Positions 51,826 through 64,000 of a stretch of DNA of 64,000 nt are shown one piece after another (positions within the stretch are counted from its first letter, which is position 1; the number at the start of each line of letters is the position of its first letter). Under the pieces are notes generated by a model that worked only from the letters and a program-made list of their open reading frames with translations, searched no databases and was not told the origin of the DNA. Source of the DNA: Verrucomicrobium sp. BvORR106 (GTDB taxonomy: Bacteria > Verrucomicrobiota > Verrucomicrobiia > Verrucomicrobiales > Verrucomicrobiaceae). The stretch lies in the NCBI RefSeq assembly GCF_000739655.1, contig NZ_BATR01000164.1:1-64000 (forward strand), read 5' to 3'. The translations under genes were made by a program, and so were the position numbers.

Positions 51826-52182
51826 TTAGAACTGAAGACCCTTGGCGCGTGCGGCATCAGCCAGCGCTTTGACTTTGCCGTGAAAGAAGAAACCGCCGCG
51901 GTCGAACACCACGCTCGTGATGTTCTTCTCAAGAGCGCGCTCAGCGATCGCCTCACCCACCTTGGTGGCGTTGGCCACGTTGGCAGCCTTGGAGGCAAGC
52001 GTCGCTTCGATGGTCGAAGCCGACACAATCGTCTTGCCCTCGTCATCATTGATGAGCTGGGCGTAAACACGTTGATTGGAGAAATGAACCGCGAGACGGG
52101 GGCGCTCGGCCGTCCCCCGGAGGGTCTTGCGAATACGGGCATGAACGAGGCGCCGGATCGCTTTGCGTTTGATGGTAGCCAT
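51826..52182 (-). CDS. rplR: 50S ribosomal protein L18
   Basis: A 118-residue L18, a 5S rRNA-binding protein. The start is basic ([19 protein letters not shown]), followed by [20 protein letters not shown] and the C-terminal [20 protein letters not shown], the family hallmark. Length is typical (about 117-122). It is transcribed between rplF and rpsE with gaps of 21 and 17 bp. Confidence 0.95.
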
Positions 52183-52203
52183 GATGTGTCTCTGCGAAAT
52201 GGA

Positions 52204-52740
52204 TTACTTGACGCTCTTGCCTTCCTTACGGCGGACGTATTCGCCCACGTAACGCACACCCTTGCCCTTGTAAGGCTCCGGCGGGTAGTAGCCACGGACG
52301 TCTGCAGCGAACTGGCCGACGACCTGCTTGTCGATGCCTTCCACGCTGATCTTCGTGTTTTCATTCACCGTGACCTTGAGGCCCTGGGGAATGGGGTGAA
52401 GCAGCGGATGAGAATAGCCAAGGCTAAGGTCAAGGTGGGAACCTTTAACAGCGGCGCGGAAACCGACGCCCTGGATTTCGAGGTCCTTCTTGAAGCCTGT
52501 GCTCACACCCTGCACCATGTTGCTGATGAGGCGTTGGGCCGTGCCATGGAAAGCGCGCACACGGCGATCTTCGGAGGCGCGGTTCACAGCGAGGACGTTG
52601 CCGTCCTGCTGAAGCGAGATACCGTCAGGGAGCACGTAATCGAGTTTGCCCTTGGGGCCTTCGACGTGCACGTTCTTGCCGGTGATCTTGACGTTGACCT
52701 TGTCCGGAAGCGCGATGGGTTGTTTACCTACTCGTGACAT
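52204..52740 (-). CDS. rplF: 50S ribosomal protein L6
   Basis: A 178-residue L6, located near the factor-binding site of the 50S subunit. Signature motifs: MSRVGKQPIALPDKVNV, GPKGKLDYVLP, MVQGVSTGFKKDLEIQGVGF, GYSHPLLHPIPQGLKV and the C-terminal RGYYPPEPYKGKGVRYVGE. A clear Shine-Dalgarno-like AGGAGG lies about 9 bases before the start on the minus strand. It follows rpsH after 18 bp. Confidence 0.95.
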   Translation of the reverse strand: MSRVGKQPIALPDKVNVKITGKNVHVEGPKGKLDYVLPDGISLQQDGNVLAVNRASEDRRVRAFHGTAQRLISNMVQGVSTGFKKDLEIQGVGFRAAVKGSHLDLSLGYSHPLLHPIPQGLKVTVNENTKISVEGIDKQVVGQFAADVRGYYPPEPYKGKGVRYVGEYVRRKEGKSVK

Positions 52741-52758
52741 GATTCAGTTCCTCCTGAC

Positions 52759-53157
52759 TTACCAGACTTTGGCCAGCAGCTCACCGCCGACATTTGCTTT
52801 GCGCGCTTTGGCGCCCGTCATCACGCCTTTCGGCGTGGAGAGAATGGTGATACCAAGGCCACCCAGAACGCGGGGGACATCATCCACGCCCACATAGTGA
52901 CGCAGACCGGGCTTGCTCACGCGCTTCACATCCGTGATCGCGGGGGTCTTGCCCTGGTACTTGATTTTCACCTGGATCTGGGGCTTGCCGTCGTTCGGCT
53001 GCACCTCATAGGACCAGATGTATCCTTCTTCCTGAAGGATACGGGCGACTTCCGCCTTGATCTTGGAATACGGTGCGCTTGCGCCTTCCTTGGCAGCGCG
53101 GCTCGCATTCTTGATGCGAGTGAGAAAGTCAGAAATGGGGTCGGTCAAAACGCTCAT
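52759..53157 (-). CDS. rpsH: 30S ribosomal protein S8
   Basis: A 132-residue S8, an early 16S rRNA-binding assembly protein. Recognised by DPISDFLTRIKNASRAAKE, APYSKIKAEVARILQEEGYI, RVSKPGLRHYVG and the C-terminal GLGITILSTPKGVMTGAKAR. It directly follows rplE (29-bp gap); rpsN (S14), normally located here, is missing from the cluster. Confidence 0.95.
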   Translation of the reverse strand: MSVLTDPISDFLTRIKNASRAAKEGASAPYSKIKAEVARILQEEGYIWSYEVQPNDGKPQIQVKIKYQGKTPAITDVKRVSKPGLRHYVGVDDVPRVLGGLGITILSTPKGVMTGAKARKANVGGELLAKVW

Positions 53158-53186
53158 CTTATTGGCCTCGGTCTTGAAATGGTTGG

Positions 53187-53771
53187 TTAGGCAGCTGCCA
53201 GATCGGCAGTGTCCGCCTTGTTGCCGCCTTTCGCGCGGAAGGGCATGCCGAGGCAGCGAAGCAGCTCACGGGCATGGTCGTCATTGCTGGCGTCCGTCAC
53301 GAAGGTGACGTCAAAACCCAGGGAGCGCTTGATTTTGTCGAGCTCGATCTCAGGGAAGATGGACTGGTCGGCGATGCCGAGCGTGTAGTTACCACGGCCG
53401 TCGAAAGCACGACCGGAGATCCCACGGAAGTCACGAATGCGGGGAATCGCAGTGCGCACCAGGCGCATCATGAAGTCATACATCTTCACACCGCGAAGAG
53501 TCACCTTGACCCCGATGGCTTCACCGGCGCGCAGCTTGAAGTTCGCGATCGCCTTCTTGCTGAAGGTCACGATCGGCTTCTGGCCGGTGATCAGGACGAT
53601 TTCCTTGACCGCGTCTTCGACAGCCTGCTTGCGGTCGGCTTCTTTGCCCACGCAGCAGTTGATGACGATCTTCTCCAGCTTCGGCACCTGATGGATGTTG
53701 GTAAGACCGAGCTCCTTGTGGAGATGCGCGATGACTTTATCCTTATATAGCGTTAACAATTCTGGCTGCAT
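53187..53771 (-). CDS. rplE: 50S ribosomal protein L5
   Basis: A 194-residue L5, a 5S rRNA and P-site tRNA contacting protein. Family blocks: VPKLEKIVINCCVGK, ITGQKPIVTFSKKAIANFKL, GVKVTLRGVKMYDFM and IRDFRGISGRAFDGRGNYTL. It is about 15 residues longer than E. coli L5, through a C-terminal AKGGNKADTADLAAA tail. It is separated from rplX by 78 bp, the largest gap within the spc block. Confidence 0.95.
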   Translation of the reverse strand: MQPELLTLYKDKVIAHLHKELGLTNIHQVPKLEKIVINCCVGKEADRKQAVEDAVKEIVLITGQKPIVTFSKKAIANFKLRAGEAIGVKVTLRGVKMYDFMMRLVRTAIPRIRDFRGISGRAFDGRGNYTLGIADQSIFPEIELDKIKRSLGFDVTFVTDASNDDHARELLRCLGMPFRAKGGNKADTADLAAA

Positions 53772-53849
53772 GATGATGACACCCTAGTTGGTTTCACACC
53801 CCGCGGCCCCACTGTGAGGCCGCGAATACGGGGCTGGCAAATTGCCTGG

Positions 53850-54092
53850 TTATTTCTTCTTTTCAACAAGTTTCACATTCGAAATGTGAATTGGGCCTTC
53901 GCGCTCGATAATACCGCCCTGGGGCTTGTCCTGAGAAGGACGGACAGCTTTCTTGATCATGCGCACGCCTTCGACGAGAACCTGATTTTTCTTGGCAACG
54001 ACCTGAAGAACGTTGCCCTGGGAACCCTTGTGGGCCCCGCTAGTGACCTCCACGAGGTCGCCTTTGTTGACGTGTGTTTTGATTCTGCTCAT
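53850..54092 (-). CDS. rplX: 50S ribosomal protein L24
   Basis: An 80-residue L24, an assembly-initiator 50S protein with a KOW motif ([20 protein letters not shown]). It is short compared with E. coli L24 (104), lacking much of the C-terminal extension, as in several other phyla. The start overlaps the rplN stop by 4 nt (54089-54092), so translation is coupled. Confidence 0.93.
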
Positions 54093-54457
54093 AGCACTTC
54101 GGGTGCGAGGGAAACGATTTTCATGAAGTTGCGGTCGCGCAGTTCACGGGCCACAGGGCCAAAAATGCGGGTGCCGCGGGGGTTGTTGTCCTTGTCGATG
54201 ATGACGATCGCGTTCTTGTCGAAGCGCAGGATCGAGCCATCATTGCGGCGGATCGGGGCGGCGGTGCGAACCACAACGGCCCGGACCACTTCACCCTTTT
54301 TCACCTGGGCGGTGGGGGTTGAGACGCGGACGTGGGCGGTGATGATGTCCCCCACCCCGGCTGTGCGCTTGTTCTTCTTGCCGATGACGCCAATCATCTC
54401 GGCCATACGCGCGCCGGTGTTGTCGGCGATCGCGATTTCGGATTCCATCTGCAACAT
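54089..54457 (-). CDS. rplN: 50S ribosomal protein L14
   Basis: A 122-residue L14 at the subunit interface (bridge B8). Recognised by [40 protein letters not shown] and [20 protein letters not shown]. Length equals E. coli L14 closely. A strong Shine-Dalgarno AAGGAGG lies 8 bases before the start. It overlaps rplX by 4 nt at its end. Confidence 0.95.
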
Positions 54458-54515
54458 AAGCTGATCCTCCTTGGGTTGGTAAAGTTACCTGATTCGATGC
54501 GAATGCCTGCCCGGC

Positions 54516-54797
54516 TTAGTGGGCCAGAACTTCCACCAACTTCCAGCGCTTGAGCTTGCTCAGCGGACGGGTCTCCTCGATGCGCACCTTGTCGCCAACT
54601 TTGGCGGTGCCTTCTTCATCGTGGGCGTAGAACTTGGAGGTCATGCGGACGATCTTCTTGAACTGGGGGTGCGGCACGCGGCGCTCCACCTCCACCACAA
54701 TCGTCTTCGACATCTTGTTGGACACAACCTCGCCCACGCGGGTCTTGCGGACAGGCGCCTTGGTTGCGGCGGTTTCGTTAGCGGTCACTTCGCTCAT
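54516..54797 (-). CDS. rpsQ: 30S ribosomal protein S17
   Basis: A 93-residue S17, a primary 16S rRNA-binding protein. The OB-fold core reads [40 protein letters not shown] and [20 protein letters not shown]. An N-terminal extension of about 17 residues ([14 protein letters not shown]) precedes it, longer than in E. coli. It follows rpmC by 25 bp. Confidence 0.94.
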
Positions 54798-54822
54798 CTT
54801 TCAGGGTCTCCCTTTAATTTGG

Positions 54823-55128
54823 TTACTCCGCGGCTTTCTTCGCGGCTTTCTTTGCAGGGGCCTTCTTGGCCGCCACTTTCTTTGCTGCCTTGGGCTTTGC
54901 AGCCGGGGCGGCGTCCGTTGACTTCTTGCCAACGGTCAGGTTGAGGCGGCGCTCAGACAGGATGGTCTCCATCCGGGCCACGTCGCGACGCGCCTGCTTG
55001 AGACGGGAGGGGTTCTCCAGCTGGCCGCTGGCCTGCTGGACACGCATGTTGAGCGCGTCCTGCTTGAGTTCACGGCGCTTTCCGCCGACTTCCTCATTGG
55101 TCAATTCGCGAAGTTCTTTGATCTTCAT
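54823..55128 (-). CDS. rpmC: 50S ribosomal protein L29 with Lys/Ala tail
   Basis: A 101-residue L29, a protein near the nascent-chain exit tunnel. The normal two-helix core (MKIKELRELTNEEVGGKRRE and ARRDVARMETILSERRLN) ends near residue 66, the usual family length. A further 35 residues form a histone-H1-like Ala/Lys/Pro tail (AAKKVAAKKAPAKKAAKKAA). The tail might contact rRNA or exit-site factors. It follows rplP by 38 bp. Confidence 0.94.
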   Translation of the reverse strand: MKIKELRELTNEEVGGKRRELKQDALNMRVQQASGQLENPSRLKQARRDVARMETILSERRLNLTVGKKSTDAAPAAKPKAAKKVAAKKAPAKKAAKKAAE

Positions 55129-55166
55129 ATCGTCGCTTCCTGCGCTATCTCTTAATGGTCAACGTG

Positions 55167-55586
55167 TTAGTGCATCGCCTGACGCGTTACAAAGCGCGTG
55201 CGAACCCCGAGTTTGTTTGCTGCCAGGCGGCAAGCGTCGCGGGCAAGAGCCTCGCTCACGCCAGCCACTTCAAAGAGCATCGTGCCAGGATAAACCACGG
55301 CAACCCAGAACTCTGGAGCACCCTTACCTTTACCCATTCGGGTTTCTGGCGGACGGGCGGTCACTGGCTTGTGTGGGAAAATGCGGATGTACACGGAGCC
55401 TTTACGCTTCAGGTGGCGGGTGATCGCCACACGGCAGGCTTCAATCTGCGTGTTCTTGATCCAGGCGCGCTCGAGGGTCTGGAGACCGAACTCGCCGTAG
55501 CTGACCTTGTTTCCTACGGTCGCATTTCCCGCGCGGCTTCCGCGGTGGGTCTTGCGATGCTTAACTCTGCTGGGCAACATTGCCAT
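55167..55586 (-). CDS. rplP: 50S ribosomal protein L16
   Basis: A 139-residue L16, which helps position tRNAs in the A and P sites. Blocks: [60 protein letters not shown] and [20 protein letters not shown]. Length is typical. A Shine-Dalgarno GGAGG lies close before the start. It follows rpsC after 59 bp. Confidence 0.95.
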
Positions 55587-55645
55587 AACTTGATTCCTCC
55601 AAAAGGTTGCTGATCGTTACTCTTGTAAACTCGGTCCGTGCAGGA

Positions 55646-56470
55646 TTAAGCCTGCTCAGGGGCTGGAGCGGGAGCGGGAGCTGGGGCCGGTGCGGGAGCC
55701 GAATGGCGGTCGCCGCCACGGTCACCACCACCACGGCGGTCTCCACCGCCACCACCACCACGGCGGTCGCCGCCACGGTTGTCGCGATCGCCACGAGGGC
55801 GGCGTTCGCGATTATCACGACGCTCGGCCTGAGGAGCGCCTTCCACTTCGGGCTTGCGGTTCAACCAGCACTTCACGCCGATGATGCCGTACACGGTACG
55901 AGCTTCGGTGAAGCCATAGTCGATCGGGATACGAAGGCTCTGAAGAGGCACTTTGCCCTGGCGGTACTGCTCAGCGCGGGCGATGTCCGCACCACCGAGA
56001 CGACCGGCGCAACGGATACGAATGCCGTCAGCACCCATGTCCATGGCGGTCTGCACCGCACGCTTCATGGCGCGCCGGAAAGAGATACGACGCTCAAGCT
56101 GGGTCGCCACCGTCTCGGCAACCAACTGGGCATCCAGCTCAGGCTGCTTGATCTCGATGATGTCGATCTTGACTTGCTTGCCGCCGCACATCTTGGAGAT
56201 CTCGACGCTCATCACTTCGATTTCCTGACCTTTGCGACCGATCACAAGGCCCGGACGGGCGGTGTGAAGCGTCACGCGGACGAGGTTCCACGCACGCTCG
56301 ATCACGATTTTCGCGAGAGCGGCCGAGGACAGCTTGCCCTTCAGGTAGCTGCGAATTGCCAGGTCGGCGTGAAGGAAGTCAGCAAACTCCTTTTCAGGAG
56401 CGTACCACTTGGAGCGCCAGTCTTTGGTGACGGCGAGGCGGAAACCGATAGGATGAACTTTCTGACCCAT
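55646..56470 (-). CDS. rpsC: 30S ribosomal protein S3 with low-complexity tail
   Basis: A 274-residue S3, forming part of the mRNA entry tunnel. N-terminal MGQKVHPIGFRLAVTKDWRS and the KH-domain VIGRKGQEIEVMSVEISKMC are diagnostic. The core ends near residue 215. About 55 further residues are Arg/Asp/Gly-rich (DRDNRGGDRRGGGGGGDRRG), then Ala-Pro repeats (SAPAPAPAPAPAPAPEQA). E. coli S3 has 233 residues without such a tail. The extension is disordered by composition and may bind RNA. It is 34 bp after rplV. Confidence 0.95.
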   Translation of the reverse strand: MGQKVHPIGFRLAVTKDWRSKWYAPEKEFADFLHADLAIRSYLKGKLSSAALAKIVIERAWNLVRVTLHTARPGLVIGRKGQEIEVMSVEISKMCGGKQVKIDIIEIKQPELDAQLVAETVATQLERRISFRRAMKRAVQTAMDMGADGIRIRCAGRLGGADIARAEQYRQGKVPLQSLRIPIDYGFTEARTVYGIIGVKCWLNRKPEVEGAPQAERRDNRERRPRGDRDNRGGDRRGGGGGGDRRGGGDRGGDRHSAPAPAPAPAPAPAPEQA

Positions 56471-56504
56471 AGCTTTGTGATTCGTTGGTGGTTCGGACGG
56501 GCGG

Positions 56505-56894
56505 TTACTTGGCCTCGGCCTTGGCGGCTTTCGCTGCCTTCGGCTTCTTCTCAGCCTCCGCTTCCTTGGCGGCGAGGATGAGGGTGATGTGGCTCATGCG
56601 CTTTTTGATGCCGCCGGCGGAACCGCGGGCGCGGGGCATGATTCGCTTCAGCACCGGACCCTTGGTGGCCGTGGCGCTTTTGACGAAAAGTTCATCCGCA
56701 TCCATCTCGTGGTTGTTTTCAGCATTGGCCACTGCGGAACGCAGAGCCTTGCCGATGAGGAGGGCGGCTTTCTTCGGGGTGAAGTTCAACACGCTGAGAG
56801 CCTGAGAAACCGGCATCCCCTGAATGGCACGGGCCACTTCCCGGGCTTTCTGGTCGGAGATTCTCGCGTATTTGAGGACGGATTTTACTTCCAT
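56505..56894 (-). CDS. rplV: 50S ribosomal protein L22
   Basis: A 129-residue L22, lining the exit tunnel. Core motifs: KYARISDQKAREVARAIQGM, FTPKKAALLIGKALRSAVAN and KRIMPRARGSAGGIKKRMSH, the last being the tunnel beta-hairpin. A Lys/Ala/Glu-rich C-terminal tail of about 18 residues is added (AEKKPKAAKAAKAEAK). It is separated from rpsS by an inserted exported coiled-coil gene. Confidence 0.94.
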   Translation of the reverse strand: MEVKSVLKYARISDQKAREVARAIQGMPVSQALSVLNFTPKKAALLIGKALRSAVANAENNHEMDADELFVKSATATKGPVLKRIMPRARGSAGGIKKRMSHITLILAAKEAEAEKKPKAAKAAKAEAK

Positions 56895-56908
56895 GACGTT
56901 GCTTCGTG

Positions 56909-57694
56909 TTAACCTTTCATTGCTTCCACCTTACCGGTGTCGCCGACTTTCACAGGTTCTGCCTTGTTGATCAGTTCTTGAACAACTGCGCCGCAGATGC
57001 CGCTGCGGACATCCACCACCACGGCGCGGGCGATGGGTTTGTCCTGACGATAAAGAGAGAAGGGCATTCCAGGATGCACGCCGTGCCTGGAGCCCACGTT
57101 GAGGATGGCGATGCCTAGATCGTCCTTCAAACTCACCACACGGGCGTTTTGAAGGTCGGCAACCGCCGTTTCGCCTTGATCCTTGAGAGAGGCCAGCGCG
57201 CGGTCTGCAGCGGTGAGCTTCTCTGTCAGGTTGGTCTTGGCTTCCGGAGCCAGATTCACACCGGAGCTGACAATGCCCGATGCAGCCTCTGACAGGCCGG
57301 AGAGAGCGCTCTGAAGCGCTCGTTTTTGAGTTTCAAGAATTCGCAGATCGCTCAACGCGGTCAGCATCCGCTCCCGAAGCACGGCATCCGTGGCGTCGAG
57401 TGCGGCAATACCAAGGCCTTCCATCTGCACGCGGAGCTTTTCATAAGCTTCGCGTGACTGCTGGCTTTCACCATTGGCAGCTGCCAGGCTTTCGGAGAGA
57501 GAGTTGATCTGCTCCTTGGCCTTGTTGAGCCGCGTTTCCAAATCAGCGATCTGGGCGGCAGAAATCTGGGCGGTGGCCCGGGCCTCCCGGACTTCCAGAA
57601 CCTCTTTCGACTGCCCCGAGGCCTGCCCAGCCACCACCAGCATCGCCAGAAGCGGTGCGGTAGAGAGGTTCAGGATTGGAACTCGAAATTTCAT
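56909..57694 (-). CDS. Exported coiled-coil protein inside the S10 operon
   Basis: A 261-residue protein between rpsS and rplV, where other bacteria have no gene. Signal peptide about 1-27 (LLAMLVVAGQASGQ). Residues about 30-190 are a long alpha-helical coiled coil (TAQISAAQIADLETRLNKAK, then repeated Leu heptads). The C-terminal about 70 residues form a small beta domain (DDLGIAILNVGSRHGVHPGM, FSLYRQDKPIARAVVVDV, CGAVVQELINKAEPVKVGD), a pattern recalling MreC-like or FlgT-like beta barrels. Its function is unknown; envelope organisation is possible. Gaps of 47 and 14 bp make it part of the ribosomal transcript. Confidence 0.75.
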   Translation of the reverse strand: MKFRVPILNLSTAPLLAMLVVAGQASGQSKEVLEVREARATAQISAAQIADLETRLNKAKEQINSLSESLAAANGESQQSREAYEKLRVQMEGLGIAALDATDAVLRERMLTALSDLRILETQKRALQSALSGLSEAASGIVSSGVNLAPEAKTNLTEKLTAADRALASLKDQGETAVADLQNARVVSLKDDLGIAILNVGSRHGVHPGMPFSLYRQDKPIARAVVVDVRSGICGAVVQELINKAEPVKVGDTGKVEAMKG

Positions 57695-57741
57695 GAGGCG
57701 TCTGAAAGTCTGGAATAGAAGGACCAGGAGGGTCTGACCGG

Positions 57742-58020
57742 TTACTTGGAGACCTTGGCGGTGTGCGCGCCGTGACCTTTGAAGGTACGGGTGGGTGAGA
57801 ATTCACCCAGGCGGTGACCGACCATGTTTTCCGAAACATACACGCTCACGAAGTCCTTGCCGTTGTGCACCAAGAAGGTGTGACCAACAAAGTCAGGTGT
57901 GATCATGGAGCTGCGGGCCCAGGTCTTGATAGGGCGTTTGGCGCCGGTCTCATTGAGCTGGTCGATCTTCCAGAGGAGTTTCTGGTTGACGAAAGGTCCT
58001 TTTTTAAGTGAGCGTCCCAT
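57742..58020 (-). CDS. rpsS: 30S ribosomal protein S19
   Basis: A 92-residue S19, in the head of the small subunit. Diagnostic segments: [60 protein letters not shown] and [16 protein letters not shown]. Length equals E. coli S19 (92). It follows rplB by 40 bp and is followed by the inserted coiled-coil gene. Confidence 0.95.
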
Positions 58021-58060
58021 GGTAAGAGGAGGGCTGAATCAGTAAGTTTCTAAATTGCAG

Positions 58061-58897
58061 TTACTTGCCTTTGCGGCCCTGCACGATGAGACGGTTGGAG
58101 TACTTCCGCTTCTTGCGGGTCTTCTGACCCTTGGCATGACCCCAGGGGCTGAGAAGGTGCTGGCGACCACCACCGGACTTGGAGCGACCTTCACCACCAC
58201 CGTTCGGGTGGTCGATGGGGTTCATACACATACCGCGGACTGTCGGGCGAACACCCTGCCAGCGCGTACGACCGGCCTTGCCGCTCACCACGTTCATGTG
58301 CTCCACGTTGCCCACCTGACCGATGGTTGCGTAGCACACCGCAAGGATCTTGCGGATCTCACCGGAGGGAAGACGCACGAGGGCGAAGTCACCTTCACGG
58401 TTGGAGAGAATGGCTGCCTGGCCGGCGGATCGGGCGATCTGGCCACCCTTGTTCGGGGTGATTTCGATGTTGTGGATCTGCGTACCGAGAGGAATGCGGC
58501 TCAGAGGAAGGGCGTTGCCCACTTCTGGTGCTGCCTTCTCACCTGCGACCACCTTGGCACCCACTTCGAGTTTGACCGGAGCGAGGATATAGCTCTTCTG
58601 GCCGTCTGCGAACTGGATGAGGGCGATGCGGGCGGAGCGGTTCGGATCGTATTCGATGCCGACCACGGTGGCGACGTCGTCACGACGGGAACGCTTGAAA
58701 TCAATGAGACGGTACCGGCGCTTGTGACCACCACCAATGTGGCGGCACGTGATGCGGCCGGTGTTGTTGCGACCACCGCTCTTGCGGAGGGCCACCGTGA
58801 GATTCGGCTCCGGGGTGCTCTTGGTGATTTCCTCAAAACCAGGCCACTGCTTGTAGCGGTTTGAGGGCGTGTTGGGCTTGTAAGTAGTAAGAGCCAT
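58061..58897 (-). CDS. rplB: 50S ribosomal protein L2
   Basis: A 278-residue L2, needed for subunit joining and peptidyl-transferase activity. Blocks: [60 protein letters not shown] and [18 protein letters not shown]. The highly conserved DHPHGGGEG loop reads DHPNGGGEG here: the first His is kept, the second is Asn. It ends with the basic [19 protein letters not shown] tail. It follows rplW after 44 bp. Confidence 0.95.
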
Positions 58898-58941
58898 AAC
58901 GCTGGGTTTGGAAATAGGTTGGCGGTTGCTCGGGCCGTCGA

Positions 58942-59226
58942 CTAGGCGAGTTCAATCTTCTCGCCGTCTTTGAGCCGGACGACGGCTTTCTTCCAGTGGT
59001 TGGTGCGGCCAAAGTCGGCGCGACGTTCGCGCTTCTTCTTGCCAGCGTAGTTCATCGTGCGGACGCCGACGACCGATTTGCCAAAGATCTTCTCAACAGC
59101 CTGCTTGATCTCAAGCTTGTTGGCGCGGGGATCCACGTTGAAGACGTACTCGTTGAGAGTTTCGCCAAGAACGGTGGCCTTTTCGCTCAACCGGATGGTC
59201 TTGATGACTTGATAAAGGTCTTTCAT
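58942..59226 (-). CDS. rplW: 50S ribosomal protein L23
   Basis: A 94-residue L23, at the polypeptide exit and the docking site for trigger factor and SRP. Start at 59226 ([19 protein letters not shown]) gives family length; the frame is open 81 bp upstream, but those residues overlap rplD and are not family-like. Core: [40 protein letters not shown]. The start is separated from the rplD stop by a single base. Confidence 0.94.
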
Positions 59227-59227
59227 G

Positions 59228-59836
59228 TTAGGCAGTCCTCCGGGCGATGGTTTCAAGGGCGTCGCCCGAGATGATGATCTTGTCGAACGCGAGAAGGTTC
59301 TCGGCATTCACGTCAGAGGCGGCCATGAGCTGCACGTTCTGAACGTTGCGTCCGCTGCGGAATGTCAGCTCGTCAAAGCTGTTGGCGAGCACGAGCACCT
59401 TGCGGGCATCCGTGAGGCCGGCGATGGCGGCGACAAAGCTCTTAGTCTTGCCGTCGGCGACCTGGAAGTCAGCCGTAACCAGCACGTCTCCGTCGTTGAT
59501 GCGGGAGGTAAGCGCCGTGCGGAACGCAAGGGTCTTCACCTGACGAGGGATCTTCTTGGAGTAATCGCGGGGCTTGGGACCCCAGACCACGCCACCACCA
59601 CTCCAGATCGGGGAGCGGGCGCTGCCCATACGAGCGCGGCCGGTTCCCTTTTGCTTCCAGAGCTTTTTGCCACTGCCGGCAACTTCATTGCGCGACTTCG
59701 TGGAGGCGTTACCCTGGCGGCGGTTGGCGCGGTAGGCGATGATAGTGTCATGCAACGCGTGGGCGCCCTTGCGGCCCTCCACCACTTGCACATTGGCCTG
59801 CTTGGCCGCGTCGATCGTTAATACATTCGATGCCAT
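59228..59836 (-). CDS. rplD: 50S ribosomal protein L4
   Basis: A 202-residue L4, an assembly-initiator whose extended loop lines the exit tunnel. Loop: NRRQGNASTKSRNEVAGSG, KLWKQKGTGRARMGSARSPI and VWGPKPRDYSKKIPRQVKTL. In E. coli L4 represses this operon. A Shine-Dalgarno AAAGGAG lies before the start. The last codon abuts the L23 start. Confidence 0.94.
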   Translation of the reverse strand: MASNVLTIDAAKQANVQVVEGRKGAHALHDTIIAYRANRRQGNASTKSRNEVAGSGKKLWKQKGTGRARMGSARSPIWSGGGVVWGPKPRDYSKKIPRQVKTLAFRTALTSRINDGDVLVTADFQVADGKTKSFVAAIAGLTDARKVLVLANSFDELTFRSGRNVQNVQLMAASDVNAENLLAFDKIIISGDALETIARRTA

Positions 59837-59857
59837 GATGACTGCACTCCTTTCAAA

Positions 59858-60496
59858 TTACTTCTTGGCCTGCTTCTTGAGAGCAGGACGGACGATGACA
59901 TAGCTGCCATTCGGTCCGGGAACGGCGCCCGCGATCAGGAGCACGCCGTCTTCTGCGCGACTCTGGACCACTTTAAGATTCTGTGTCGTGCGACGGTCGA
60001 AGCCGTGGCGTCCGGGCATTTTCTGGTTTTTCCAGACGCGACCAGGGGTCAGACGGCAACCGATGGAACCTGTCCGGCGGTGCATCATGGAACCGTGGGA
60101 AGCGGGCTGGCCCTTGAAGTTGTAACGCTTCACAACGCCGGAGAAACCCTTGCCCTTGGTGGTGCCGATCACATCGACATACTCACCGTCAGCAAACTTG
60201 TCTGCACCGAGGGTGGAACCGGCCTCAGGGGCCTCCCCTTCCGTGCGGAATTCGCGGATGACATACTTCGCGGAAGCATTGTGCTTCTTGAAGTGTGCCA
60301 GCTCCGGCTTGGAGCAGCGAGTTTCCTTCTTGTCGTTATAGCCAACTTGCACGGCGCTGTAGCCGTCCTTGTCTGCGTTCTTGACCTGGACAACCTGGTT
60401 GCCGGCCACGTCGATCACCGTCACAGCGACGGCACTGCCGTCCTTGAGGTAAACCTGGGTCATCCCCACTTTTTTGCCAATCAATCCGATGCTCAT
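59858..60496 (-). CDS. rplC: 50S ribosomal protein L3
   Basis: A 212-residue L3, reaching the peptidyl-transferase centre. Blocks: MSIGLIGKKVGMTQVYLKDG, KGKGFSGVVKRYNFKGQPAS, HGSMMHRRTGSIGCRLTPGR and KNQKMPGRHGFDRRTTQNLK. The MHRRTGS loop corresponds to the region methylated in E. coli. Length is near E. coli L3 (209). It follows rpsJ by 23 bp. Confidence 0.95.
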   Translation of the reverse strand: MSIGLIGKKVGMTQVYLKDGSAVAVTVIDVAGNQVVQVKNADKDGYSAVQVGYNDKKETRCSKPELAHFKKHNASAKYVIREFRTEGEAPEAGSTLGADKFADGEYVDVIGTTKGKGFSGVVKRYNFKGQPASHGSMMHRRTGSIGCRLTPGRVWKNQKMPGRHGFDRRTTQNLKVVQSRAEDGVLLIAGAVPGPNGSYVIVRPALKKQAKK

Positions 60497-60519
60497 GGAT
60501 GGTAATCCTCAGGTGTGAC

Positions 60520-60828
60520 TTAGATGCGAATGGTAATGTCCACGCCGGACGGGAGGTTGAGCTTCTTGAGCTCGTCCACTGTGCGGGCGGTCGGGTCAAC
60601 GATGTCCAGCAGGCGCTTGTGCGTGCGGATTTCGAAATGCTCGGAGGACTTCTTGTCCACGTGCGGTGAGCGGTTCACGTTGAACTTCTCGATGCGCGTA
60701 GGAAGAGGGATCGGTCCCGCGACTTTGGCGCCGGTACGCTTGGCGGTCTCGACGATCTCGGCCGTGGACTTGTCCAGGACGCGATAGTCGTAGGCGCGCA
60801 GGCGGATTCTGATGCGTTGGCTTTGCAT
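60520..60828 (-). CDS. rpsJ: 30S ribosomal protein S10
   Basis: A 102-residue S10, first gene of the S10 block. Segments: [60 protein letters not shown] and [11 protein letters not shown]. Length equals the family (about 102-103). It follows fusA after 37 bp; no tuf gene lies between fusA and rpsJ in this window. Confidence 0.95.
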
Positions 60829-60865
60829 GATGGGTACTCCCGCTGGTTGAAATGTTGGTTGTTAA

Positions 60866-63022
60866 TTAGGCCTTCTTGCCACCGCGCTGCTCGACGATCT
60901 GGTCCACGATCTGTTGCGGCACCTGGTCGAAATGGGACGGCTGCATCGAGTAGGATGCGCGGCCGCTGGAGAGCGTGCGGATCGTCGTGCTGTAGCCGAA
61001 CATTTCAGCCAGGGGCACTTCGGCCTTCACGATGCTCATGTTGTTGCGGCTGTCGATCGCGGTGATACGACCGCGGCGGCGGTTGATGTCACCCATGATG
61101 TCGCCCTGATATTCCTCAGGAGTGGTGGCCTCGACTGCCATGATGGGTTCCATCATGATACACTTGGCTTTCTTGAGGGCGTCTTTGACTGCGAAGATGG
61201 CCGCCATTTTGAAGGCGTTTTCGTTGGAGTCCACTTCGTGGCTGGATCCGTCAAGGATGTCCACGTGGATGTCCACCACTTCGTAGCCAGCGATGATGCC
61301 ATTGTGCATGGCTTCGTTCACGCCCGACTTACAGGCATTGATGTATTCCTTGGGAATCGTACCGCCGACCACTTTGTTCTCCACGGTGATGCCCTTGCCG
61401 CGCTCGGAAGGATACACCTTGAGGATCACGTGACCGTACTGACCACGACCACCGGACTGCTTGACGAGTTTGCCTTCGCCGTCGGCTTCCTTGGTAAGCG
61501 TTTCGCGGTAAGCGATCTGCGGAGCACCAGCGTTGGTGTCCACCTTGAACTCGCGCAGCATACGGTCGCGCAGAATTTCGAGGTGAAGCTCGCCCATGCC
61601 GGCGATGATCGTCTGGCCGGTCTCTTCGTCGGTCCGGACCACGAAGGTCGGATCTTCGTCGGAGAGGCGCTGGAGGGCCATGGCCATCTTCTCCTGGTCG
61701 CCTTTGGCCTTGGGTTCCACGGCCATGGAAATAACTGGCTCTGGGAACGACGGGGGCTCAAGCAAGATATCGTAATCGTCTTCGGCGAGGGTGTCGCCCG
61801 TGGTGACGTTCTTGATGCCGACCATGGCGGCGATGTCACCGGAATAACAGCAGTCGATGTCCTTGTGCTGGTTGGCCTGAATCTGGATCAAGCGGCCCAC
61901 ACGCTCAGTCTTGCGGGTGCGGGGGTTGTAAACGACGTCGCCTTTTTTGACGCAGCCGGAGTACACACGGAAGAACACCAGCTTACCGACGAATTTGTCG
62001 CTCCAGAGTTTGAAAGCGAGGGAGACAAACTTCTCGCCGTCGTCCGGACGGGCTTCGATCTTGATTGCTTCGTCGTCAGCGCTCTGGCCTTGGGCGGCTG
62101 GAATGTCGAGGGGGCCTGGGAGGTAATCCACCACGGCGTCCACAAGATACTGAACACCCTTGTTCTTGAAGGCAGAACCACCTGCCATCGGGATGATCTT
62201 GAGACCGATGACGGCGCGGCGGAGAGCCTGCTTCACGTCATTGACTGAGATCGGCTTCTCTTCGAGGAACATCGTGCCGATTTCATCGTCCACGTTGCAG
62301 AGTTCTTCGACGAGTTCATCGTAAGCCTGATTGGCGATGTCAACCTGATCGCCTTCAAGTTCGCGAACTTCGTAGGTGGAACCGAATTTGTCATCGTCAG
62401 AGAAGATGACGGCCTTCTTGTTCACCACGTCGATCTGGCCACGAAGGCTGTCTTCAGCACCGATCGGGATGAGGATCGGCCAGGCGTTTGCGCCCAGCTT
62501 GGTGCGAACGTCTTCCACCACACGCTGGAAGTTGGCACCAGTACGGTCCATCTTATTGACGAACGCAATACGAGGCACACCGTACTTCTCAGCCTGACGG
62601 TAAACCGTCTCGGACTGGGGCTGCACACCAGCCACGCCGCAAAGCACGAAGATCGCACCGTCAAGAACGCGCAGGGAGCGCTCCACCTCAGCCGTGAAGT
62701 CCACGTGACCGGGGGTGTCGATGATGTTAACGCGAATGTCCTGGTTTTCGAAGAGCTTGACCGTACCTGGCCCGGGGAGCTGCTTCCACTTGGTGGTCAC
62801 AGCAGCGGAGGTGATCGTGATCCCGCGCTCTTTCTCCTGTTCCATCCAGTCCGTGGTGGCTGCACCGTCGTGCACCTCACCGATCTTGTGGATCATCCCG
62901 GTGTAGAACAAGATACGCTCGGTGAGCGTGGTCTTGCCGGCATCGATGTGGGCGCAGATGCCGATGTTGCGGGTCCGCTCAAGCGGGTACTCGCGTTGGG
63001 GGGAATTCGGGGTGGCGGACAT
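60866..63022 (-). CDS. fusA: Elongation factor G
   Basis: A 718-residue translational GTPase driving translocation. Nucleotide motifs: AHIDAGKTT (about 24-32), [12 protein letters not shown] (switch II), and [11 protein letters not shown]. Domain IV reads [13 protein letters not shown] and [17 protein letters not shown], and domain V ends with the ANMREMFGYST-like [20 protein letters not shown]. It is about 15 residues longer than E. coli EF-G (704). It follows rpsG by 56 bp. Confidence 0.96.
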
Positions 63023-63078
63023 GAGTCAAAGATCAGGTGAAGAGGACGAACGACGTACGGGGAAAACTGCAGGACCGA

Positions 63079-63552
63079 CTACCAGCGGAAGTGGGCGAAG
63101 GCGCGGTTCGCCTGAGCCTGCTTGTGCACGTCATCACGCTTGCGGATGGCGTTACCCTGGTTGGTGGACGCGTCACGCAGCTCGTTGGCGAGGGCGCGGT
63201 GCATCGGAGTACCTTTGCGGGAGCGGGCGAAGTTGACGATCCAGCGGAGCGCCATGGCTTCGGAGCGAGCCGGCACCACTTCGAGGGGCACCTGGTAGGT
63301 CGCACCACCCACGCGGCGGGCTTTCACTTCCACACGGGGTTTGGCGTTTTCGATCGCACGGGTCACCAACTCAAGCGGATCCACGGCGTCGCTGTTCTCA
63401 TTCAGGGCGTCGATTGCGGCATACACGATGCGCTCGGCGAGGGACTTCTTGCCGCCCACCATGATTTTGCTGATGAGGTGAGCCACCAACTCGCTGTCAT
63501 AGCGAGAGTCTTTGCTGACCGGTTTGTCGAAAACGCGTTTCCTGCGGGACAT
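63079..63552 (-). CDS. rpsG: 30S ribosomal protein S7
   Basis: A 157-residue S7, the primary head-assembly protein. Core: RVFDKPVSKDSRYDSELVAH, LISKIMVGGKKSLAERIVYA, VTRAIENAKPRVEVKARRVG, GATYQVPLEVVPARSEAMAL and the C-terminal RKRDDVHKQAQANRAFAHFR. Length is typical. It lies between rpsL (44-bp gap) and fusA, as in the str operon. Confidence 0.95.
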   Translation of the reverse strand: MSRRKRVFDKPVSKDSRYDSELVAHLISKIMVGGKKSLAERIVYAAIDALNENSDAVDPLELVTRAIENAKPRVEVKARRVGGATYQVPLEVVPARSEAMALRWIVNFARSRKGTPMHRALANELRDASTNQGNAIRKRDDVHKQAQANRAFAHFRW

Positions 63553-63596
63553 GGTAAATTAGCTGCTAAAGATTAAAGAGGCAGAGAAGGCCGGGC

Positions 63597-64000
63597 TTAT
63601 TTCTTGCCCTTGCCAGTGGCGGCGGCTTGGCCCGGCTTCGGACGCTTCGCACCGTACTTCGAACGACCACGGCGACGCTTGTCCACCCCAAGGCAGTCCA
63701 GCGTACCGCGAACGATGTGATAACGGACACCCGGCAAATCCTTTACTCGGCCGCCGCGAACCAGGACGATGGAGTGTTCCTGGAGGTTGTGTCCTTCACC
63801 GCCGATGTAGGCGATGACTTCGAATCCGTTGGTCAAGCGCACCTTGGCAACCTTACGGAGAGCCGAGTTTGGCTTCTTCGGGGTTCTGGTCATCACCTGC
63901 AGACATACACCACGACGCTGGGGGCAGTTCGCAAGCGCGGGTGACTTGGATTTGACCGCTTTATCCTTGCGGCCATGTCGCACGAGTTGGTTGATGGTGG
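63597..64000 (-). CDS. rpsL: 30S ribosomal protein S12 (start outside window)
   Basis: S12, controlling decoding accuracy. The frame runs to the window edge: [20 protein letters not shown] is readable, preceded by two bases of a Pro codon, so the ATG lies just 4 bases beyond the edge. Length would be about 136. Both lysines whose mutation gives streptomycin resistance are intact ([10 protein letters not shown] and [11 protein letters not shown]). A Gly/Lys-rich C-terminal end ([13 protein letters not shown]) is present. Confidence 0.95.

Follow-up and report, generated by a model that had tools for sequence, protein, structure and literature searches.

Why should a gene for a predicted exported protein lie inside the S10 operon, whose gene order is among the best conserved in bacteria? 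The question arises from a window of 64,000 nucleotides of the Verrucomicrobium sp. BvORR106 genome. A sequence-only reading of this window had placed an ORF, here called gene X, at the rpsS-rplV junction, and both the coordinates and the gene order agree. Gene X (56909-57694, minus strand) begins with ATG, encodes 261 amino acids and lies exactly between rpsS and rplV, 47 nt from the former and 14 nt from the latter. The features discussed below are as follows.

51826..63983, minus strand: ribosomal gene cluster rplR...rpsL, with gene X inside
57742..58020, minus strand: rpsS (ribosomal protein S19)
57695..57741, minus strand: rpsS-X gap, 47 nt, without a promoter-like site (family-wide median 21 nt)
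56909..57694, minus strand: gene X, predicted exported helical protein with a C-terminal beta domain (ORF; same junction in relatives; dN/dS 0.11-0.13)
57611..57694, minus strand: signal-peptide-like N-terminus, codons 1-28 (from the sequence; hydrophobic in 82/91 homologues)
57401..57607, minus strand: 69-residue helix, probable coiled coil, codons 30-98 (AlphaFold2; 104-degree hydrophobic period, p 0.14)
57266..57388, minus strand: second helix, probable coiled coil, codons 103-143 (AlphaFold2; 103-degree period, p 0.024)
57173..57247, minus strand: third helix, codons 150-174 (AlphaFold2)
56924..57154, minus strand: six-stranded beta domain, codons 181-257 (AlphaFold2; FlgT C-terminal domain fold; most conserved part)
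56895..56908, minus strand: X-rplV gap, 14 nt (family-wide median 19 nt)
56505..56894, minus strand: rplV (ribosomal protein L22)

On the minus strand the genes follow in the order rpsL-rpsG-fusA-rpsJ-rplC-rplD-rplW-rplB-rpsS-X-rplV-rpsC-rplP-rpmC-rpsQ-rplN-rplX-rplE and onward. X has the features of an S10 operon member: it shares the strand of rpsS and rplV and adjoins both across short gaps. At 87 loci the flanking gaps have medians of 21 nt on the rpsS side and 19 nt on the rplV side, with 90th percentiles of about 40, so there is little space for private signals. A promoter scan around X found no promoter-like site, and terminator-like sites there occurred at chance level only. No private promoter or terminator could be assigned to X; the weak hairpin that follows rpsS (57739-57722) lacks a T run. 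Since the gaps on both sides average about 20 nt, X is very likely located in the S10 operon and co-transcribed with it, and the earlier claim of co-transcription holds up well. Elsewhere in the operon, the rpsC product (S3; 55646-56470, minus strand, 274 aa) has an extended C-terminal tail with many RGG/RDNR and AP repeats, and its similarity to relatives mostly stops near residue 212-220. The rpmC and rplV products have Lys/Ala-rich tails too.

Against a codon-usage background of the genes of the window, X has a codon adaptation of 0.536; all 20 neighbouring ribosomal and fusA genes are higher (0.571-0.803), and X ranks 12/29 among the other genes of the window, in the middle of the range. 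Because its codon adaptation is lower, the cell probably makes less of X than of the ribosomal proteins, and the earlier description of the protein as abundant finds no backing in these values. In a 2,664,102-bp genome, which we take to be that of the A. muciniphila type strain, the ribosomal cluster has 16 genes, of which X is the seventh. A published transcriptomic study of A. muciniphila (PMC11480725) reports significant upregulation of the ribosomal protein cluster Amuc_0294-0308 in its entirety, and position and gene count place X within it. The main text of an Akkermansia outer-membrane proteome study (PMC4960237) names no tag from the X region.

The X protein begins with a signal-peptide-like N-terminus, MKFRVPILNLSTAPLLAMLVVAGQASGQ. 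An N-terminal signal or anchor is conserved across X homologues, with a strongly hydrophobic N-terminal stretch in 82 of 91. The export call is based on hydrophobicity and inspection of the N-termini, which differ among homologues and include cleaved-signal, lipobox-like and transmembrane or uncleaved types. On this basis we are fairly confident that X leaves the cytoplasm. An AlphaFold2 model built from an alignment of 60 junction proteins (mean pLDDT 87.3, pTM 0.47) places helices at residues 30-98, 103-143 and 150-174, about 145 residues in all, and strands within 184-256. The helices are long and isolated, and their hydrophobic residues recur with a near-heptad period of 103-104 degrees (permutation p 0.14 and 0.02), so a coiled coil is likely. 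The first description of X as an exported coiled-coil protein with a C-terminal beta domain is thus upheld for export, helices and beta domain; the coiled coil itself stays at likely. The window X protein matches no Pfam or NCBIfam family at cut-off, and the aligned family gives only coiled-coil-type matches and weak FlgT_C or MreC profile matches.

X is a real gene under selection. Its dN/dS is 0.11 and 0.13 in comparisons with two congeners, and homologues with identity down to 25-30% lie at the same junction in relatives. The signal region (codons 1-28) evolves fastest, with a dN/dS of 0.24-0.32. Against the same two congeners the last 81 codons (181-261) show no amino-acid change at all (dN = 0, dS 0.17-0.19). 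Synonymous change, too, is lower in this beta domain (0.17-0.19; helical part, 0.57-0.58), which makes the omega of the beta domain less secure than its invariance. One locus (L112, 1273-1638) encodes a short X of 122 amino acids at the rpsS-rplV junction, consisting of a signal peptide and a beta domain, with the helical part absent. Because this protein keeps signal and beta domain without the helices, and because anchor types vary, selection appears to hold the location and the beta domain of X.

The location is indeed shared widely. All distribution figures given here cover Verrucomicrobiota genomes. X of Verrucomicrobium sp. BvORR034, from the same genus, is 91% identical and sits at the same junction. 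In an 8,220,857-bp single-contig congener (G067), X occupies about 5,534,190-5,534,972 on the minus strand, again with rpsS and rplV on either side. At the family level an X match was found in 61/68 genomes, and the order rplB-rpsS-X-rplV-rpsC in 30/30 loci examined. At the order level 274 of 289 genomes gave the match. The other 15 hold paralogue-like matches only; rplV is missing from the assembly in 14 of them, and in one the contig ends inside rplV. Among the 289 order genomes there was no absence of X wherever the rpsS-rplV junction is assembled, and the apparent absences arise because ribosomal contigs are missing. PMC9723686 describes the loss of ribosomal protein genes from MAGs as a general pattern. 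Here, rplV could not be found in assemblies rated 87-96% complete (G194, G195, G202, G212, G234, G252, G261, and likewise G262, G277, G283, G287, G290, G045 and G053), so ribosomal operons can be missing from draft genomes of this quality. Where both X and rpsS were matched, X adjoins rpsS in 53/54 genomes, and the remaining match is a paralogue.

In a junction survey at the class level, clearly more than half of the loci sampled had rpsS and rplV separated by an X-like ORF of 120-360 aa. In loci without X, rpsS and rplV are 1-150 nt apart, except for one (L123) with a 552-nt gap and no X-like ORF within it. Outside the class, X is shorter or more divergent and frequently has an uncleaved anchor. 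On a phylum-wide ribosomal-protein tree of 126 genomes, X stands before rplV in 88 and is present in every deep clade. The pattern requires 12 changes, at least 10 of them forced by starred branches, and the tree alone does not separate gain from loss. Ancestral presence with repeated loss is favoured because homologous genes occupy one identical site, and these sequences fit an X that was ancestral in the phylum and was then lost about a dozen times. The losses include whole families and a 0.9-Mb reduced genome, and since X was lost several times it is dispensable in some lineages. In that reduced genome (L094, G327) the junction gap is 148 nt; a larger relative (G580) retains X.

In many genomes of other classes a break in the S10 operon separates rpsS from rplV. 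In 24 genomes the upstream flank contains no rpsS, and X still stands immediately before rplV; most of these were chosen for having an X match. Among genomes chosen solely for a split operon, X was found in 4/5. Unrelated genes follow rpsS in several split operons (L148, L150, L152, L153, L154), and X usually heads the rplV half (L155-L183). In Verrucomicrobiota, the placement of X before rplV is therefore more durable than the contiguity of rpsS and rplV. The sequence-only reading was correct that X interrupts a conserved order, but this is an understatement, as X before rplV is the conserved state of the phylum. The survey of the junction that it had proposed shows X to be phylum-wide and no private insertion; X is present in relatives, and no promoter or terminator of its own was found. 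An assembly artefact is likewise ruled out by many independent genomes.

Proteins related to X are also encoded outside the ribosomal operon. In a comparison of 59 rplV-linked X proteins with 22 paralogues, the two sets form separate clades (support 95). Relocation of X in lineages that lack it was considered and rejected, as the outside-operon matches examined (e.g. L185-L188) group with the paralogues. In the BvORR106 genome, contig C200 encodes a tandem pair with an anchor, long helices and a FlgT-C-like beta domain; this pair and its relatives make up the loci L128, L129 and L189-L192, and pairs of this type recur across the order, one member having a Pro/Ala-rich tail. A third paralogue on contig C110 (L060, 1556-2249) combines a membrane anchor, a proline-rich linker and the same beta domain, and adjoins a TlyA-like rRNA methyltransferase gene. 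These own-genome paralogues resemble X in their anchor and C-terminal domain, and the C200 pair also in its long helices, but they lie outside the ribosomal operon and in the separate clade.

Several known proteins invite comparison with X, and some of them suggest other explanations of the gene. The architecture of X, with a membrane anchor or signal followed by a coiled coil and a beta domain, is also the plan of the elongasome scaffold MreC (PF04085), with which X shares a 'G..dGv' turn motif. X could then be a divergent form of this rod-shape protein; Foldseek lists MreC 2j5u (E 7e-4), and MreC models pick up a few members of the X family (E 2e-4 to 3e-3). Window X itself, however, matches no PF04085 or other MreC model at E <= 1, and a true MreC is encoded elsewhere in the genome, on contig C77 beside mreB, whereas X has no such link to mreB and lies in the S10 operon. 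Profile-profile comparison with this true MreC gave a probability of 0.4%. We reject membership of the MreC family, which is exceedingly improbable. A second explanation makes X part of a specific envelope machine, such as a pilus or secretin, outer-membrane assembly or cell division, with the FlgT-C-like domain as a docking module and the operon position accidental. The beta domain superposes on the FlgT C-terminal domain (3w1e) with Z 11.0 and an rmsd of 2.0 A over 77 aligned residues, and FlgT (PF16538; PDB 3w1e, 8z5n), an exported protein of the Vibrio flagellar H-ring, is a motor-ring protein with this same fold. The N-terminal barrels of F1-ATPase subunits score only slightly lower (Z about 10), and fold sharing alone shows no function for X. 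FlgT_C scores 16.8 bits on X, below the Pfam cut-off of 27. The N-terminal and middle domains of FlgT gave no Pfam match at E <= 1 in window X, which has helices there instead, and FlgT belongs to a flagellar locus, unlike X. X was therefore rejected as a FlgT, although one of its domains has the FlgT fold. The X profile also matches the secretin-associated TsaP (PDB 3jc8) at residues 192-230 (E 0.008), but this match is weak and short; TsaP has a LysM domain, for which X gave no Pfam match at E <= 1, and lies in a secretin/pilus locus rather than a ribosomal one. No pilus or division genes adjoin X, and X is carried by every lineage of an order whose members have diverse lifestyles. A role in one specific machine is rather unlikely on this evidence.

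The remaining explanations turn on the operon position. X may act mainly in cis, its translation or nascent-chain export tuning rplV-rpsC through translational coupling or as a SecM-like sensor, with the protein itself secondary. The short gap to rplV (median 19 nt) and the persistence of X directly upstream of rplV in the 24 split-operon genomes would suit such a role. It accords poorly, however, with a folded beta domain as the most conserved part of X, with final residues that vary between genera, unlike those of known arrest peptides, and with the many lineages in which rpsS and rplV are directly joined; we regard a mainly cis-acting X as quite unlikely. It is also conceivable that X is a passenger, an old insertion of minor function kept since excision from a ribosomal operon is hard. 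Its ordinary codon adaptation and its absence from part of the phylum would agree with this. Yet X can be removed, as its clean losses (gaps of 1-148 nt) demonstrate; X accompanies rplV through operon splits, and a passenger would hardly be expected to have a dN/dS of 0.11-0.13 and an invariant beta domain. We judge this quite unlikely too.

The account that we tentatively favour is that of an ancestral, vertically inherited, exported periplasmic scaffold, co-transcribed with the S10 operon and supplied in step with growth. X would be transcribed within the S10 mRNA just ahead of rplV, and its N-terminal signal or anchor would direct it to the Sec pathway. It would stand in the periplasm as a stalk of long helices, probably a coiled coil, with a FlgT-C-type beta barrel at its end, as the structural model suggests. 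The invariant beta domain may bind an envelope partner, as MreC or FlgT-C modules do. Its supply would be set by the same transcription as the supply of ribosomes, so that an envelope component would follow growth rate, with the level of X probably set by a translation rate lower than that of the ribosomal proteins. The more specific role of a periplasmic scaffold or spacer is possible, given the architecture, though doubtful. The low codon adaptation of X speaks against a structural protein made in bulk.

Non-ribosomal genes are familiar within S10-spc-alpha operons: secY, adk, map, infA and rpoA. Like X, they are co-transcribed with ribosomal protein genes, and members such as secY proved central. 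They serve translocation, metabolism, transcription and translation in the membrane or cytoplasm, whereas X is predicted to be exported and is position-specific. X is thus a non-ribosomal gene in a ribosomal operon, and its probable export is the new element. Literature searches turned up neither an account of an exported protein at this position in the S10 operon nor an experiment on X. Another clade-specific protein, CT421.2, is a hypothetical signature protein common to all main PVC phyla, and its description sets it apart from X (PMC3444138).

X probably couples a component of the envelope to the making of ribosomes. It is a bolder and unlikely proposal that X is a phylum-wide coupler of envelope building to ribosome production, an exported scaffold with its gene locked ahead of rplV, by which envelope capacity would scale with the capacity for translation; export of X might also feed back on the expression of rplV-rpsC. 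The question can be put to the test in the genetically accessible Verrucomicrobium spinosum, for which transposon data have been published (PMC12283558), and is relevant to the gut bacterium Akkermansia muciniphila. That an apparently exported protein has been held since the base of the phylum, and has stayed with rplV where the operon broke, strongly hints at a core envelope function scaled to growth.
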